Below are positions 22,188 through 29,768 of a stretch of 64,000 bases of DNA, in pieces (position 1 is the stretch's first letter; each line of letters begins with the position of its first letter). Location of the stretch: assembly GCA_005116965.1 (NCBI GenBank), contig SWDG01000025.1, positions 361,883 to 425,882 of the forward strand. Direction: 5' to 3'. Under the pieces are notes generated by a model that saw nothing but the letters and a program-made list of their open reading frames with translations, was not told where the DNA came from and did not search any database. Position numbers and translations under genes: made by a program. Source of the DNA: Nitrospira sp. (GTDB lineage Bacteria; Nitrospirota; Nitrospiria; Nitrospirales; Nitrospiraceae).

Positions 22188-22487
22188 TTACTTCGCCTTG
22201 CCCTTCGGCTTCGCCGAAGCCTGTTCAGCATGCGCGAGCGACTCCTCCGCATGCTTCATCGATTCCTTGGCATGCTCGAGCGCTTCCTTCGCGTGAGGAT
22301 TTTCGCTGCCCTGAATTGCTTCTTCCAGATGCTTAATGGCCTCCTTCTCGTGCGCAATGCCCTCCTTCGCGTGCTTGATGGTTTCCTGCACATGCCCATC
22401 TCCTTTGGCAAATGCGACACTCGTCACACCTCCTGCGAGAAGACTGCAGACCGCGATCGCAACGACACCAGCTTTCAATTGTGTCAT
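22188..22487 (-). CDS. smbP: SmbP-like small periplasmic metal-binding protein
   Basis: This 99-residue protein has a signal peptide ending VAFA and a mature chain of repeated heptads with regularly spaced His: ETIKHAKEGIAHEKEAIKHLEEAI, then ALEHAKESMKHAEESLAHAEQ. This matches SmbP, described from the ammonia oxidiser Nitrosomonas europaea as a periplasmic protein that binds copper and other divalent metals on a four-helix bundle. It probably buffers copper in the periplasm. It is followed by a terminator and preceded by 780 bp without genes that contain three strong hairpins. Confidence 0.88.
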   Translation of the reverse strand: MTQLKAGVVAIAVCSLLAGGVTSVAFAKGDGHVQETIKHAKEGIAHEKEAIKHLEEAIQGSENPHAKEALEHAKESMKHAEESLAHAEQASAKPKGKAK

Positions 22488-22630
22488 AACCCCTCCTCAT
22501 GATTTAGTTGATGAAGTCCGAACCCGGGTACAAGTATACACAGACTATTCTATCAGGGGAAATATCACGATCCGAAGGGCCGCTCACCCGCAATTTCAGG
22601 AAACGGATTGTGCTGTGTGTCCCCGAAGGG

Positions 22631-22667
22631 CCAGGGAGTCGGAAGGAGGCAACCACCGACTCCCTGG
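22631..22667. repeat. Perfect 12-bp hairpin D with AAGGAGG loop
   Basis: CCAGGGAGTCGG and its exact complement flank a 13-base loop that reads AAGGAGGCAACCA on the plus strand. It is the nearest of three hairpin units in the 780-bp leader region of smbP. It lacks the second GTCCGAGC stem that accompanies units A, B and C. Confidence 0.6.
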
Positions 22668-22839
22668 GCAGGCCTGGAAGAAGAGTGCGCAACTACCAGA
22701 CCCGTTTTTCTTGGTTTCACCAAGTCTCCTCCTGTGTTTCGACTTTTCTGTCCGAGACGGCAGGTTTGCCCGCCTGTGTTTGCGATCAACTAATTCAACC
22801 GTTTCAGGCCGACATTCCAGTCGTGTCGAAAATAAGGAG

Positions 22840-22908
22840 CCGGGGCGGAGGTAGACGGAGGCAACACCTGCGCCCCGGATCGGTCCGAGCGAGGGGGCGG
22901 CTCGACCG
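22840..22908. ncRNA. Double-hairpin unit A
   Basis: Stem 1 pairs CCGGGGCG (22840-22847) with CGCCCCGG (22871-22878) around a loop with ACGGAGGCAAC. Stem 2 pairs CGGT and CGAGC (22881-22890) with GCTCG and ACCG (22900-22908), with one bulged base and a G-rich loop. The same two-stem plan recurs at B and C. Read on the minus strand, stem 1 is followed by a T-rich stretch, so a terminator role is also possible. Confidence 0.45.
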
Positions 22909-23111
22909 GACATCGATAGCTCAATACTTCTCGAATGGATCGGGATCATTCAATCATTTCTTCCATCACAGAGACATGCCGATGATCGCGAGTATCCTCA
23001 ACAACAGGCTCACCAGCACACGGCATTGAGGTAGGGTCTTGTCCTGTGAAGACCATAAGAGCCAGGCGCTAACTCGTCTTGCCGGCACATTGGACTTGCT
23101 GAAAATTTAGG

Positions 23112-23182
23112 GCGGGGTAAAGGAGGAGGCAGTCAACCTTCACCCCGCGCTTAGTCCGAGCCGGAGGGTCACCTGCTCGGAC
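23112..23182. ncRNA. Double-hairpin unit B
   Basis: Stem 1 pairs GCGGGGT (23112-23118) with ACCCCGC (23142-23148), extended by AAGG/CCTT, with AGGAGGAGGC in the loop. Stem 2 is a perfect 8-bp pair, GTCCGAGC (23154-23161) and GCTCGGAC (23175-23182), with loop CGGAGGGTCACCT. Stem 2 and most of its loop are shared with unit C. It lies 86 bp after the stop at 23268; on the minus strand CCTAAATTTTC follows stem 1. Confidence 0.5.
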
Positions 23183-23267
23183 GGTTTACCGAAACAGTTT
23201 GGTTATGAAATAGGCGCACTCAGGCTGCATTCATACCAGCGCGCAGAGCACGGCCACGCGGTACGGA

Positions 23268-23639
23268 TTAGCCAATTCTGACGAAGAAAACCGAAGGAGG
23301 CGCCCGCGAATGGATCGCGGAGGAATATGTGGAGTAAGGAAGTCCGGCTGAAGTGAATTCTGCTGGCCCACTCACCAAATCTCTGACAGCTAGTTGTGGG
23401 CCACCTTCCGCTATGGTGTCCGCTGTAGCCTGACAAGCCCAGGCACAGAACTGGTCTGTGGCAGATGAGCCGTCGTCTGCGTGATGGTGATGATGATCAT
23501 TCAACACCTGCTGAGCATGCGTAAACATGCAGCTGGCGTTCATCACTGAAAGCGCCACATAGATCAATGCCACACCGACGATCACGGTGTGATGGATCAA
23601 CCTACCTGGATATTTCCTGTACCTCATCATCGTCATCAT
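23268..23639 (-). CDS. Small exported His-rich protein with CAWAC motif
   Basis: This 123-residue protein has a hydrophobic leader (HHTVIVGVALIYVALSVMNA), then NDHHHHHADDGSS, a C-A-W-A-C motif and a C-terminal IHSRAPPSVFFVRIG. The His run and Cys pair suggest metal or redox binding in the envelope; this is inference. The plan matches three other small proteins at 26724-27158, 28357-28665 and 29412-29717. Several Met codons at the start leave the true start open. It stands apart from the TonB gene upstream on the same strand. Confidence 0.65.
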   Translation of the reverse strand: MMTMMRYRKYPGRLIHHTVIVGVALIYVALSVMNASCMFTHAQQVLNDHHHHHADDGSSATDQFCAWACQATADTIAEGGPQLAVRDLVSGPAEFTSAGLPYSTYSSAIHSRAPPSVFFVRIG

Positions 23640-23683
23640 CTATATGTGAATCTTGAAATACTGTCTACTGACGTTTGCTCACT

Positions 23684-23693
23684 GATGCTACAG
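23684..23693 (-). promoter_or_regulatory. Partial copy of the GCATCTGT promoter motif
   Basis: CTGTAGCATC reads toward the His-rich gene at 23639 from 45 bp upstream. It matches half of the longer motif at 276-291. Evidence for this copy is weak. Confidence 0.25.
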
Positions 23694-23728
23694 TCGGGTC
23701 AAGAAAAGCAGTGGATGGCTGATGAGAG

Positions 23729-23938
23729 CTATGTATGTATTGATCGCTGCCATGAACCGGCCATATCACTCTGATTGGCTTCAATCAAACTCGTGATTGA
23801 ATCGCGAACAATGCGCACACCCCCCTTGCCGATCTTCGTCCCCCGCAATCGCCCTTCTTCTACCCATCGATAGATCGTCCATCGACTGACTGAGAGCACA
23901 GCAGCCGCTTCTCCCACTCGCAGCAATGTCTTTTCCAT
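23729..23938 (-). CDS. Small helix-turn-helix (excisionase/MerR-like) protein
   Basis: This 69-residue protein is a single DNA-binding domain: LRVGEAAAVLSVSRWTIYRWVEEGRLRGTKIGKGGVRIVRDSI, the excisionase-type HTH that ends in a small wing. It starts 10 bases after the stop of the TonB-like gene and is probably in the same transcript. Such lone domains act as transcription regulators or recombination directionality factors. No integrase is nearby, so local regulation is the likelier role. Confidence 0.8.
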   Translation of the reverse strand: MEKTLLRVGEAAAVLSVSRWTIYRWVEEGRLRGTKIGKGGVRIVRDSITSLIEANQSDMAGSWQRSIHT

Positions 23939-23948
23939 GGTGTTCGCT

Positions 23949-24827
23949 TTAATTGGCCAAACTATAGACGATTGGGAGGCTCACGACGATTTGCGGCTTG
24001 CCGATGGCATGTTTCATATGGAGGGGACAGGCCAACTTCACCGCTTCCATCGCCGCCATATCGAGCGCCGCGTACCCTGAGCTCTTCAGGACGAACACAT
24101 CGGCCAGTTGTCCATCAGATCGGATGATGGCTTTCAAGATCACTTTCCCTTCCTGGCCGTTCATGCGGGCCGAATTCGGATAGCGTTTGAGTTCCGCCAC
24201 CCGCCGCCAGAGCGACTCGGCCAGCCATTGATGATCCAGTTTCGCTTCAGCACTCGGTCCAGCAGCCCTGGTCACCTGCACCGGAGCCGCATCCACATGA
24301 CTATTCTGCGACGAAACTAGTGCGGAAGCCTCTTGAGCAACAGGAGCTTCGGAGGGCGATGGAGGAGCTGATGCGACCGCGACCGTCTCATTCGGAACAG
24401 GTTGGGACTCGATCGGTTCAGGTGAAGCAGCCACGGCAACCGGCTCAGATGTCGGCTGAGCGATTTCGGCGATCGACTGCTCAACCGGCTCTTCACGTAC
24501 CTGCGAACTCTCAACTTTTGTTTCGATCGTCGGTCGTGGCGGCTCCGCAGCTTGTGCCGTCGCTCGTACCGGTTGGAGTATCTTCGGTACCGGAGGTGTC
24601 GCCTTTGCAGTCGGCTGGGAGGGAGGCACGACCGATTCAACTTGTTCCGTCGTGAGATTAGGCTTCGTCGCCTCTACCAAGGCCACGTCCCACTGGAAGA
24701 CCTCCTTAGGTAAGAGGGGTTTGACCTGCGTTGCAAACATCACCGCCAACCCAACCGCGAAGCCGTGCAACGTCAGCGAGATGCCCCAGGAAGGAAGAAA
24801 GAATCGATTTTCATCTGTTGATGTCAT
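23949..24827 (-). CDS. TonB-like energy transducer
   Basis: This 292-residue protein has one N-terminal membrane helix (SLTLHGFAVGLAVMFATQV), a long Pro/Ala/Glu/Val-rich periplasmic spacer with repeated Pro-containing blocks, and a C-terminal TonB domain: YPNSARMNGQEGKVILKAIIRSDGQLADVFVLKSSGYAALDMAAMEAV. TonB links the inner-membrane ExbB/ExbD motor to outer-membrane receptors for metals or cofactors. ExbB/ExbD and a classical receptor are not in this window. AAGGAAA lies before the ATG at 24827. It neighbours a beta-barrel gene and His/Cys-rich exported proteins. Confidence 0.85.
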   Translation of the reverse strand: MTSTDENRFFLPSWGISLTLHGFAVGLAVMFATQVKPLLPKEVFQWDVALVEATKPNLTTEQVESVVPPSQPTAKATPPVPKILQPVRATAQAAEPPRPTIETKVESSQVREEPVEQSIAEIAQPTSEPVAVAASPEPIESQPVPNETVAVASAPPSPSEAPVAQEASALVSSQNSHVDAAPVQVTRAAGPSAEAKLDHQWLAESLWRRVAELKRYPNSARMNGQEGKVILKAIIRSDGQLADVFVLKSSGYAALDMAAMEAVKLACPLHMKHAIGKPQIVVSLPIVYSLAN

Positions 24828-24958
24828 GTTTCCTTATGACCGCTTAACCAGCCCATATAATGTGCTGCATCAGACAATGGCAGGACGTGCATACAAGACC
24901 CCTTCCTACAGTCCTTTACTTGAACGCCGAAAAACTATCTACCTATGCCTGCCTACCG

Positions 24959-24969
24959 ATGCAACAACC
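24959..24969 (-). promoter_or_regulatory. Partial copy of the GTTGCAT promoter motif upstream of tonB-like gene
   Basis: On the minus strand this reads GGTTGTTGCAT and continues CGGTAGGCAGGCATAGGTAG, similar to the flank of the copies at 3935 and 29769. It lies about 132 bp upstream of the start at 24827. The gap 24828-25209 also holds hairpin unit C and no gene. Confidence 0.4.
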
Positions 24970-25046
24970 AGTTCCATCCACGCCGGTGAATATGTTCCGC
25001 TTGCAGCGTTGCCAGACCTAGAGCCAACACCGGCGGAAGAAAACGT

Positions 25047-25117
25047 GCGGGGCGGAGGCCACGGGAGGTGCGCCTCCGTCCCACGCTGGTCCGAGCCGGA
25101 GGGCAGCCTGCTCGGAC
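25047..25117. ncRNA. Double-hairpin unit C
   Basis: Stem 1 pairs GCG, GGG and CGGAGGC (25047-25059) with GCCTCCG, CCC and CGC (25072-25086), with two single-base bulges and a CACGGGAGGTGC loop. Stem 2 is GTCCGAGC (25089-25096) with GCTCGGAC (25110-25117) and loop CGGAGGGCAGCCT. It shares stem 2 exactly with unit B, 2 kb away. It lies after the stop at 25210 and upstream of the tonB-like gene; on the minus strand ACGTTTTCTTCC follows stem 1. Confidence 0.5.
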
Positions 25118-25209
25118 AAGACATTCTCTTCACCATCAATCATCTACCCATCGATGGGCAGCCCATCGGATATCGAAGCTCCGATAGACTGCCCTATCCG
25201 CTTTTGGGA

Positions 25210-26736
25210 CTAGTTGCTCGCCTGGTTGCCAGCCGCTGCCGCACCAGATTCGAATACCAGCACACCTCCAGGATTTGGCCCGACAGGAATCGTTTGTTTG
25301 ATCTGATTATCCGTAGCATTGATGATCGACACGGAATTGTCAGCTCTGTTTGTCACAACGATGAACTTGGCTTCCCCAGCTCCTTGCACCAAGACATCCA
25401 TGATATGCGCCAGGTTAAATCCCGCTGTATCTCCACCTGCAACTAACCCGATCTCCCTGATGAGAGTGAGGGCAGGAGGTGTCGCCGTGAGCGTCGATGC
25501 GTCGAATGCGAACAGGCGATCTTTTTTCGTTGAGGTGGGGGCATTCCCATCCAAGATATAGAGTCGTTTGCCATCCGGAGAGAACTTGTATGAAAAGCTC
25601 GGCGAGGCGCCGTCAAGCGCAGGAATGGTGAAATCCGTCCTGGGAGTCCCGGCGGTACCAAGATCGATCACTCCCAGCTTCACCGCCTGTGGGGTCTTCG
25701 TCTCTCCGCGCAGCAGCAGAAAGCGACCATCAGGACTCATTCCGTAGCCCGAATACGGTGTGCCAGCCAGATCGAACGTGTTTGTTGTCGCAAAGGTAGT
25801 CGGGTCGATTTCGACGATCTGCTTGTATCCCTCCAGGATGCTATAGACTTTCTTCGTCAGGTTCGACCAGCGAATCCCGTGGGGAGCAGACGCATTTGGG
25901 GTGAACGCCGTGGTGGACGGCGTATTCACCTCACTGTTGCATGGCGTTGTTTGCTTCGTTGAATTGCACAGATCGATCCGCTTGATCAGTTTGCGATAAT
26001 CTGGGGAGGCTTCGTCAGCGTCGATCACGGCCATTTCACCGGCGTCTTCACTTGTGATGAACGCACGCTTGAGAATCCCCGCTCCTGATGAAAAGGTGGC
26101 AACCTTGTGGCCATCCGCTAAGAGACAGGTTGTTCCCAGTACGACCGGCGGCGTTCCACTGGCGCCAAGATGGGAGTTATGCATCACCGTCACTGACCCT
26201 CCTACAAGCGGGCCACCGACCCGATTAGGGTTATTGCAGTTGATGAGATCATCCCCCGGCGTGAGGGTTCCACCCGCGCTATCGCCATCGTTCATGATCC
26301 ACAAGACTTCGCCGTCATTTCGATCACGATAAAGATGGACAGGGTTGGTGCCTGCGTCCAGATTCTCTTCATGGACCGGAGTGGCCGCAGTCAACGGGTC
26401 AATCGTTGCAACTTTATTGGCCGCCTCAAGATTCATGAAAAGCCAATTTCCACTCGAAACCTGCATATCGCCCAACGCGACATTTCCGAATTCCGCCGCA
26501 TCGATCGTGTTGACCACCGCATTGCCTGAGTCGCCCTTCAACGCGACGCTGGTCAGCGTCTTGTCACCACTATTAGTGACAAACACCAACGCGCTGGTGT
26601 TCCCGGCGCTACCACTCGACGCTGGTGTTGTTGAAGTGGTTTCTCCTGAATTGCATGCCGCAAGACTGATCAGCGCAAGTCCTAACGCGCCCGTTGTGAC
26701 ACTTGATACAAAGTTGTTTCTCTTCATTGCGTCCAT
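25210..26736 (-). CDS. Exported beta-propeller (YVTN-like) lipoprotein
   Basis: This 508-residue protein has a lipobox at LISLAAC, followed by a low-complexity Ser/Thr linker. The rest shows repeated beta-propeller blades: ALVFVTNSGDKTLTSVAL, KKVYSILEGYKQIVEIDP, GYGMSPDGRFLLL, FSYKFSPDGKRLYILDG, KFIVVTNRADNSVSIINATDNQIKQTIPVG. The final blade is a clear YVTN-type repeat. Such proteins bind partners or ligands in the periplasm or on the outer membrane. AAGGA lies 7 bases before the ATG at 26736. Its start overlaps the preceding small Cys/His protein gene by 13 bases, so they are co-expressed. Confidence 0.8.
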   Translation of the reverse strand: MDAMKRNNFVSSVTTGALGLALISLAACNSGETTSTTPASSGSAGNTSALVFVTNSGDKTLTSVALKGDSGNAVVNTIDAAEFGNVALGDMQVSSGNWLFMNLEAANKVATIDPLTAATPVHEENLDAGTNPVHLYRDRNDGEVLWIMNDGDSAGGTLTPGDDLINCNNPNRVGGPLVGGSVTVMHNSHLGASGTPPVVLGTTCLLADGHKVATFSSGAGILKRAFITSEDAGEMAVIDADEASPDYRKLIKRIDLCNSTKQTTPCNSEVNTPSTTAFTPNASAPHGIRWSNLTKKVYSILEGYKQIVEIDPTTFATTNTFDLAGTPYSGYGMSPDGRFLLLRGETKTPQAVKLGVIDLGTAGTPRTDFTIPALDGASPSFSYKFSPDGKRLYILDGNAPTSTKKDRLFAFDASTLTATPPALTLIREIGLVAGGDTAGFNLAHIMDVLVQGAGEAKFIVVTNRADNSVSIINATDNQIKQTIPVGPNPGGVLVFESGAAAAGNQASN

Positions 26737-27158
26737 GGAACGTTCCTTCCTCGTGAGTGATCACCTTCTAAAGTATTGCCCGGAGCGCAGCCGGCTCCCT
26801 CAATGCATCTGTTCTCTGCGATCTGAAGCCCACCTTGTGGCGGGCCGCGAGGCGGGAATTCACCATCAAGAGCGGCATCTTGTCGGAGAATGTCACCGAG
26901 GCTCCACACGCGGCTCACGTGAGTATCGGCGGAAATTGTTCCCTGTCCACCACCGCTCTGAATATCGAAGCCGCCACAGTGCCACGCACAATGATTGTGA
27001 CTCGGCTGACCGTTCTGCGTCTGCCCGCTCGGACAGTGGGGTGCTGTCCATTGCGACGTCAGATTCCCCTGTGCGACAGACAGAGATCCAGCTAACCACA
27101 GCACGGCCCAGCAGCCGCTCAGTATCCGAGAAACTGGTTGTCGCGTCTTCGTCAACAT
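26724..27158 (-). CDS. Small exported Cys/His protein with CAWHC and RGPP motifs
   Basis: This 144-residue protein has a leader ending SLSVAQG and then PSHNHCAWHCGGF, combining His with the C-A-W-x-C motif. FPPRGPP follows near residue 105, after which it has a longer Cys-containing tail than its relatives. It overlaps the propeller lipoprotein gene by 13 bases and follows the beta-barrel gene by 33 bp. Metal or heme handling is plausible from the ligands, but no family function is known to me. Confidence 0.6.
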   Translation of the reverse strand: MLTKTRQPVSRILSGCWAVLWLAGSLSVAQGNLTSQWTAPHCPSGQTQNGQPSHNHCAWHCGGFDIQSGGGQGTISADTHVSRVWSLGDILRQDAALDGEFPPRGPPQGGLQIAENRCIEGAGCAPGNTLEGDHSRGRNVPWTQ

Positions 27159-28356: not shown

Positions 28357-28665
28357 CTATGAAAGAAGCCTGGGAGGCCCGCGGAAGAAGTACGGGAGCG
28401 TGATCTCATGAAGGACTAGGTCAAAGGAAGGAATGGCAATCCATTCAAAAAGCTGAAGACCCGACACCAAATGAACGACCGAGGACTCGACCCCTACACC
28501 GCCGGCGCATAACCATGCACAGATGCCAGTCGAATGAGTGCCGGTGGCATGATCCGCATGGTGCTGCGCATGACCGACAGTGGGGGCAGCCGTGAGCCCG
28601 CTCATCATCACAATGATAAGCAACAGTCCCCAAACTATGGCGGGTCGTCTTGCGTTCATCGTCAT
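28357..28665 (-). CDS. Small exported His-rich protein with CAWLC and RGPP motifs
   Basis: This 102-residue protein has a hydrophobic leader ending in VGHA, then QHHADHATGTHSTGICAWLCAGG and a C-terminal YFFRGPPRLLS. The order of His-rich block, C[AS]WxC and RGPP is the same as in 23268-23639 and 29412-29717. It begins 10 bases after the TlpA-like gene and is followed by the beta-barrel gene, suggesting one transcript. Function is unknown; the ligands suit metal binding. Confidence 0.65.
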   Translation of the reverse strand: MTMNARRPAIVWGLLLIIVMMSGLTAAPTVGHAQHHADHATGTHSTGICAWLCAGGVGVESSVVHLVSGLQLFEWIAIPSFDLVLHEITLPYFFRGPPRLLS

Positions 28666-29411: not shown

Positions 29412-29717
29412 TTATAAGGAGATGGACGGAGGAGCACGACTGGAACAGATACGCGGGGGTTCTGAAAAAGCGTCACTGGAATGAACGATCGAAAGAAGCG
29501 CGATGGGGTTACGCTCGGCATGAATCAAGACAACTTCAGTGTCGAGGACCGTACCGGCGGCACACATCCAGGAACAGAGCAACGTTCCATGTGTTGCCGC
29601 TTGATGCTGCGCATGGTGCCCGGCATGTTCCGCAGATTGTGCTTGCGCCAACCCGCCAATAGCGAGGACACATAACACAAGCGATACCGAAAGTAATTTG
29701 CGGAATGAGCGACCCAT
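29412..29717 (-). CDS. Small exported His-rich protein with CSWMC and RAPP motifs
   Basis: This 101-residue protein has a signal peptide ending LAQA, then EHAGHHAQHQAATHGTLLCSWMCAAG and a C-terminal CSSRAPPSISL. It is the most compact member of the family seen here. The ATG at 29717 is chosen over an upstream GTG because it keeps a normal basic start. The promoter motif copy at 29769-29784 lies 52 bp upstream. Metal binding is inferred from the His cluster and Cys pair. Confidence 0.62.
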   Translation of the reverse strand: MGRSFRKLLSVSLVLCVLAIGGLAQAQSAEHAGHHAQHQAATHGTLLCSWMCAAGTVLDTEVVLIHAERNPIALLSIVHSSDAFSEPPRICSSRAPPSISL

Positions 29718-29768
29718 GCTATAAGGCACTTCCCGATAGGGCTGTATTAACCTATGCCATACCTACCG

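Follow-up and report, generated by a model that had tools for sequence, protein, structure and literature searches.

A conserved two-hairpin RNA module of Nitrospiraceae in the neighbourhood of copper-sensor-like small ORFs

Genes and double hairpins at the locus

The region described here belongs to a 64,000-nucleotide stretch of Nitrospira sp. DNA, hereafter the window. From 22.2 to 29.7 kb, all confidently called genes lie on the minus strand. They comprise an smbP-like gene for a small metal-binding protein (22188..22487; Pfam SMBP, 36.9 bits, over the cut-off), tonB (23949..24827; Pfam TonB_C, 2.9e-15; SD AAGGA), and a gene encoding a putative beta-propeller-like lipoprotein of 508 aa (25210..26736), for which a comparison with Pfam returned no match. 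Others encode a Phenol_MetA_deg-type outer-membrane protein and a thioredoxin-like protein. Three small ORFs of one family, described below as sensor ORFs, are present at 23268..23639, 28357..28665, and 29412..29729.

Four double hairpins, units A to D, are located on the minus strand of this region. Covariance models were built for three groups, R1 from D, R2 from B and C, and R3 from A. Unit C (25041..25122) lies between the beta-propeller-like gene upstream and tonB downstream and scores 87.7 bits with R2 (E 3.2e-16), a model whose training set included unit C itself. Unit B (23106..23187; R2, 85.9 bits, E 7.7e-16) is found 80 nt past the stop codon of the small ORF 23268..23639 and carries CCUCC in both loops. 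It is followed by unit A (22834..22916; R3, 107.4 bits), unit D (22621..22712; R1, 112 bits, E 5.9e-19), and then the smbP-like gene, which has an unusually strong SD (GAGGAGGGG).

The hairpins listed in an earlier note on this DNA were all present, and units A to D have more stable folds than dinucleotide-preserving shuffles, whichever strand is read (z −2.4 to −5.3). The sequences GTCCGAGC/GCTCGGAC are common to units B and C, as had been claimed. Unit D, previously taken for a single hairpin, proved to be the second half of a double hairpin whose 5′ member (GGTCTGG...CCAGGCC) is just as conserved. We also retrieved the T-rich stretch reported after stem 1 of A, B, and C on the minus strand. 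GTTTTC directly follows hairpin 2 of unit C, while unit D has no U-tract and ends with CCCTTCGGGG. An extra hairpin, GGGCAGTCTATCGGA...CCGATGGGCTGCCC (25156..25194, minus strand), read directly from the sequence, separates the end of the upstream gene from unit C, and similar hairpins stand ahead of most C-class copies. Two more copies of the element were found in the same genome, on another contig (locus L106).

Distribution, structure, and transcribed strand

A homology search of the intergenic DNA around the units in 79 congeneric genomes returned short islands exactly over D, A, B, and C; in most of these genomes, the DNA between the islands has diverged. The covariance-model search that the earlier note had suggested yielded further copies: R2 matched in 51 of the 79 congeners, with at most 12 copies per genome, and over 296 sampled genomes of the phylum its matches fell only within the same family, with 30 genomes from the genus itself and 11 from six others. 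The D class is present in 34 of the 79 congeners, and relatives of the C class occur in many. The genomes compared were mostly MAGs, and stricter filters were applied in the genus-wide scans. When the exact core pattern of hairpin 1 was searched in one genome each of 84,980 species, 26 stretches were obtained, only in records named Nitrospira or Nitrospiraceae. The same pattern had no match in viral contigs, and on this search we rejected a viral origin of the element.

On these computational results, the four units represent one conserved two-hairpin RNA module of about 80–90 nt in Nitrospiraceae. Unit A is also recovered by R2 (42.1 bits, E 1.5e-6) although this model was built without A-class sequences, and A is therefore related to B and C. 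The kinship of D, suggested by weaker cross-matches and a common plan, is less firm. Searching the whole window against Rfam release 15 gave no match at or above the gathering score of any family, and the best sub-threshold match over 22500–25250 had an E of 3.4. We thus rejected a known riboswitch or sRNA as the identity of the element, in line with the earlier note, whose author recognised no RNA family.

The earlier note had also proposed compensated changes and selection on structure. Compensation cannot be judged from the three diverged units of the window alone but is clear over 103 homologues. In a MAFFT alignment of 42 B/C sequences, which was not fitted to the model, 97.2% of cells pair and 7 pairs are compensated, compared to 3.6 ± 0.9 in shuffles. 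In the set of 103 distinct sequences aligned to the model, a procedure that somewhat favours structure, 96.2% of cells pair, two-sided changes occur at 16 of 21 pairs, and there are 135 compensatory cells against 38 ± 10 in shuffles and 4–24 with the partners slid. These results support the view that the structure of the element is under selection.

We then considered which strand is transcribed. Read on the minus strand, the stem cells hold 113 G-U and 20 A-C combinations, and the numbers swap on the other strand. Of 118 A/B/C-type copies, 94 have at least 4 T in the 8 nt that follow hairpin 2, compared to 33 of 118 at the opposite (antisense) 3′ end. Covariance-model scores at the same places are 86–95 bits in sense and about 15–25 in antisense. 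Together with gene orientation, these observations argue computationally that the RNA is transcribed from the minus strand, along with the surrounding metal/copper genes, and that its loops show CCUCC rather than GGAGG. The earlier note had reported GGA or GGAGG in six of seven plus-strand loops and suggested an RNA sponge for CsrA or an SD mimic. The plus strand does read so, but this is the complement of the transcribed CCUCC; the elements near sensor ORFs are, besides, all on the strand of those ORFs. With the four lines of strand evidence also pointing to minus, we consider a plus-strand sponge barely conceivable.

CCTCC occurs in 131 of 143 elements, compared to 24% of shuffles, and in 93 of the 103 aligned elements, commonly in both loops; the columns of loop 2 are among the conserved positions of that alignment. 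CCUCC, the complement of GGAGG, is in general an anti-Shine-Dalgarno motif, and the loops are expected to act as “anti-SD”. The 3′ end of 16S rRNA was not found in this genome or in four congeneric ones, from which the rRNA is probably missing or withheld. The GC-rich hairpin and following U-rich tract of an intrinsic terminator are seen in the same 94 of 118 A/B/C-type copies and are not seen in D. These data support the second option of the earlier note, namely that the units, read on the minus strand, are terminators or leader switches ahead of smbP and tonB. A sigma-70 promoter scan near the elements returned one weak match in 8 kb, fewer than in shuffles, and no promoter of the element's own was recognised.

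Sensor-like ORFs and genomic context

The product of the small ORF 23268..23639 (minus strand) has an export signal or transmembrane segment, a His-rich stretch, a CAWAC motif, and a C-terminal RAPP. Comparison of its motifs with published leaders (PMC9426467; PMC9973294) suggests a CutF/CruR (DUF2946)-like, putative copper-sensing arrest-peptide leader. Its relatives are small exported or membrane-anchored proteins in which a His-rich stretch and CxWxC are combined with RAPP or RGPP at the C terminus, and they form the largest gene family around the elements when the genes of 20 other loci and the window are clustered. In 18 aligned members, C65, C69, R112, P114, and P115 are invariant (CxxxC, RxPP). 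The combination that marks a CruR/CutF-type leader, a Cys metal motif with a C-terminal RAPP/proline arrest motif, is therefore present. ORF 23268..23639 scores 15.0 bits against Pfam DUF2946, under the cut-off of 23.7; this domain is the only recurrent Pfam match among the sensor ORFs (13 of 18, below the cut-off, best E 9.6e-4). The earlier note had overlooked these ORFs.

DUF2946 includes CruR of Bordetella, an upstream ORF that senses copper, carries a RAPP arrest motif, and is located before a TonB-dependent transporter gene (PMC9426467). It also includes CutF of Rhodobacter capsulatus, in which CxxxC and a proline-rich end are accompanied by a stem-loop in the intergenic region (PMC9973294). 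Structures of RAPP-type arrest peptides have been characterised (PMC10951233). The sensor ORFs look like such copper-sensing arrest-peptide leaders, with motif similarity and gene neighbourhood suggesting the link to copper.

Between the sensor ORF and the B-class element, a further hairpin spans the stop codon (23223..23273, minus strand, in the window; e.g. TCAGGCTCGGATAAGC...GCTTATCCAGCCTGA), about 12–16 nt 3′ of the RAPP codons. Its stem sequences co-vary between genomes. It was found at 30 of the 42 sensor ORFs with an element after them and at 17 of 50 others; for some of these others, the script had missed an element. A ribosome stalled at RAPP would leave this hairpin folded, while a ribosome at the stop codon would open it. 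Alternative pairings between this hairpin and the element, searched by eye, were limited to matches of 4–5 bp.

Of the 140 element copies in the genus-wide search, 126 have a sensor ORF within 12 kb, in every case on the same strand (chance expectation about 3%), and 54 of the 140 are directly downstream of one, modally 76–95 nt past the stop. Among the fetched loci, 51 of 108 copies begin within 320 nt after an ORF ending in R[AGS]PP, mostly 68–95 nt past its stop, compared to 0 of 134 in the antisense control. The gap from sensor ORF to element is typically 70–100 nt; it is 68–95 nt after RAPP ORFs for B-class copies in most genomes and about 250–285 nt for the A class. C-class copies instead follow the beta-propeller-like gene, homologues of which precede them in many genomes, and often stand ahead of tonB, ending 41–63 nt before it in many genomes. 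Further neighbours include a TonB-dependent receptor, smbP, and an HTH_17 protein. The distance to the next gene varies from 13 to more than 500 nt. Tandem arrays of 3–4 copies occur with no sensor-family ORF in between; one locus (L108) has four copies at about 200-nt spacing and another (L014) has several. Roughly 10% of copies have no sensor ORF nearby, and some of these stand in leaders of response-regulator genes and lack a U-tract; at two loci (L112 and L120), the element ends 39–44 nt ahead of response-regulator genes with GGAGG SDs. The main location of the element, established computationally, is in the intercistronic regions of copper-type operons.

A multi-copy, palindromic, extragenic sequence with tandem duplications might be a non-autonomous mobile repeat (REP/MITE-like) or an mRNA-stabilising hairpin, with no regulatory function in its loops. 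However, each genome holds only a few copies, and almost all of them share a functional neighbourhood and an orientation; viral contigs hold none, the loops are conserved, and the stem changes are compensated. We judge this explanation very unlikely.

Possible mechanisms and related systems

Our preferred explanation, held tentatively and at somewhat less than even probability, is by analogy an attenuator of operons headed by a copper sensor, the terminated RNA of which would be a CcsR/cuckoo-like small RNA with two anti-SD loops. Hairpin 2 and the U-tract would form the intrinsic terminator, or attenuator, of these operons, whose first gene would encode a copper sensor acting as a nascent chain. 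Whether the ribosome stalls at RAPP, beside the stop-codon hairpin, or is released would set the amount of transcription past the module, so that read-through would depend on the sensor ORF and on copper. The terminated or processed RNA would remain stable as a small RNA, and both of its anti-SD loops could pair with GGAGG ribosome-binding sites on other mRNAs. Several observations run against this attenuator with a small RNA: the roughly 10% of copies off sensor ORFs, the missing U-tract of D, the DUF2946 scores of the sensor ORFs below the cut-off, and the failure to recognise a promoter of the element's own or a specific trans target.

The element could instead be an attenuator in cis only, in which hairpin 2 and the U-tract terminate, hairpin 1 is accessory, the element controls how far transcription reads through from the sensor ORF or the upstream gene into the next gene, and the released RNA has no function of its own. 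The element sits between the sensor ORF and the next gene, most copies have a U-tract, and CruR sets a precedent of regulation by termination in the same interval (PMC9426467). The 41–63 nt between C-class copies and tonB are, moreover, too short for a separate promoter, and tonB is therefore probably read through the element. However, a plain terminator does not need the conserved loop sequences, and neither the tandem arrays of 3–4 copies nor the copies without a U-tract (D and those in response-regulator leaders) are accounted for. Although doubtful on its own, this possibility is nearly as likely as an attenuator with a small RNA. A trans-acting RNA is favoured because the loops are conserved, CCUCC is present in both hairpins of many copies, and the element occurs in tandem arrays. 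A cis attenuator and a trans-acting RNA are compatible and can both be true. No specific trans target emerged from a ranking of duplex energies within the window, where gene starts were unreliable and smbP was not called.

The CCUCC loops might also pair in cis with the SD of the next gene in a translational switch, as the CutF stem-loop masks the cutO SD. The elements of L112 and L120, 39–44 nt ahead of genes with GGAGG SDs, and the unusually strong smbP SD, GAGGAGG, would fit such a switch. However, the tonB genes 41–63 nt past C-class copies have weak AAGGA-type SDs without a match to the loops, and the distance to the next gene varies from 13 to more than 500 nt. SD masking is therefore not the general rule and, as the function of the element, is improbable, while it is possible for copies ahead of response-regulator genes.

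Returning to the attenuator with a small RNA, a more speculative extension is a two-layer copper switch, in which an arrest-peptide uORF would govern, in its own 3′ region, the output of multicopy anti-SD sRNAs, so that one stall would gate the operon in cis and tune mRNAs in trans. We consider such a switch, of a kind not known to have been described so far, rather unlikely.

The key enzymes of nitrite-oxidising and comammox-type Nitrospira depend on metals. To our knowledge, the RNA biology of these bacteria has been little studied, and in the open-access literature we found no paper that describes such small RNAs or such copper uORFs from Nitrospira. The present analysis contributes a strongly covarying structured RNA family from this group, and the proposed coupling between ribosome stalling and the output of small RNA can be tested directly. 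The link of this family to putative copper-sensing arrest-peptide leaders would extend the CutF/CruR theme to a phylum that the CruR paper does not name (PMC9426467).

Like CruR of Bordetella, the sensor ORFs are small, have a Cys metal motif and a C-terminal RAPP, and head copper/TonB-type operons with a long structured intergenic region (PMC9426467). They differ in having CxWxC where CruR has CXXC, and in scoring below the DUF2946 cut-off. CruR acts by Rho-dependent termination (PMC9426467), and it is not known to be followed by a conserved double-hairpin RNA. With CutF they share CxxxC, a proline-rich C terminus, an export signal, and a stem-loop that separates the sensor ORF from the target gene (PMC9973294). 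In that system a single stem-loop masks the cutO SD, whereas here a separate two-hairpin module follows 70–100 nt further on, often with a U-tract.

In Alphaproteobacteria, CcsR1-4 are tandem sRNAs that stand after ccaF1, a gene for a short DUF1127 protein (PMC10253847), and have anti-SD loops on variable stems (PMC3927594). The Nitrospira element resembles CcsR1-4, cuckoo, and alpha-r14 (NfeR1) RNAs in its multiple hairpins with an anti-SD motif in several loops and differing stems (PMC10253847; PMC3927594; PMC10746234), and also in its tandem copies, its position downstream of a short-protein gene, and its terminator-like 3′ end. Unlike in these RNAs, its loops consist of CCUCC with class-specific flanks and not of the full nonamer CCUCCUCCC, and its recurrent partner is a CxWxC/RAPP ORF related to DUF2946, not the DUF1127 gene (CIN1 locus). 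It also belongs to another phylum and has no match in Rfam. Because it has neither the full CCUCCUCCC motif nor a DUF1127 partner, we did not assign the element to cuckoo/CcsR; its parallel to the alphaproteobacterial CcsR/cuckoo loci is possibly a case of convergence.

D-class elements and response-regulator leaders

Relatives of window unit D, which lies upstream of smbP, are followed within about 100 nt or less by another conserved gene, not smbP, in five other loci (L019, L022, L024, L030 and L032); the product begins MLGSLEMTR... in L019, L024, L030 and L032. The D class may therefore mark a second regulon. Outside the copper-type loci, elements occupy the leaders of response-regulator genes with a GGAGG Shine-Dalgarno sequence in L112 (7123-7205, minus strand), where a Spy/CpxP-like gene precedes the element, and in L120 (5416-5498, plus strand). 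Neither of these two elements has a clear U-tract.

Tandem arrays and an excisionase-like neighbour

Four near-identical elements stand in tandem on the plus strand of L108 (8181-8862) and, with additional truncated copies, of L014 (1580-2562). These arrays are evidence of a recent expansion in copy number. Genes of the HTH_17 (excisionase-like) type recur next to elements (13 of the 21 loci with clustered gene families, window included), and a 69-aa window ORF resembling these neighbours (23729-23938, minus strand) could encode an operon regulator.

Leader-like ORFs in the window

Motifs of the CxWxC...RGPP/RAPP type, as in putative copper-sensing arrest-peptide leaders, identify, besides the small ORF at 23268-23639, two additional leader-like ORFs on the minus strand (28357-28665 and 29412-29729), directly preceding MetA_deg-like and thioredoxin-like genes. 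No double-hairpin element was found 3' of either ORF. A further minus-strand ORF (26724-27158) carries an HNHCAWHC motif and ends in ...FPPRGPP..., an ending common to its L107 and L108 homologues (gene-family cluster 26). Judging from these motifs, it possibly represents, with its homologues, another metal-sensing arrest-peptide family.
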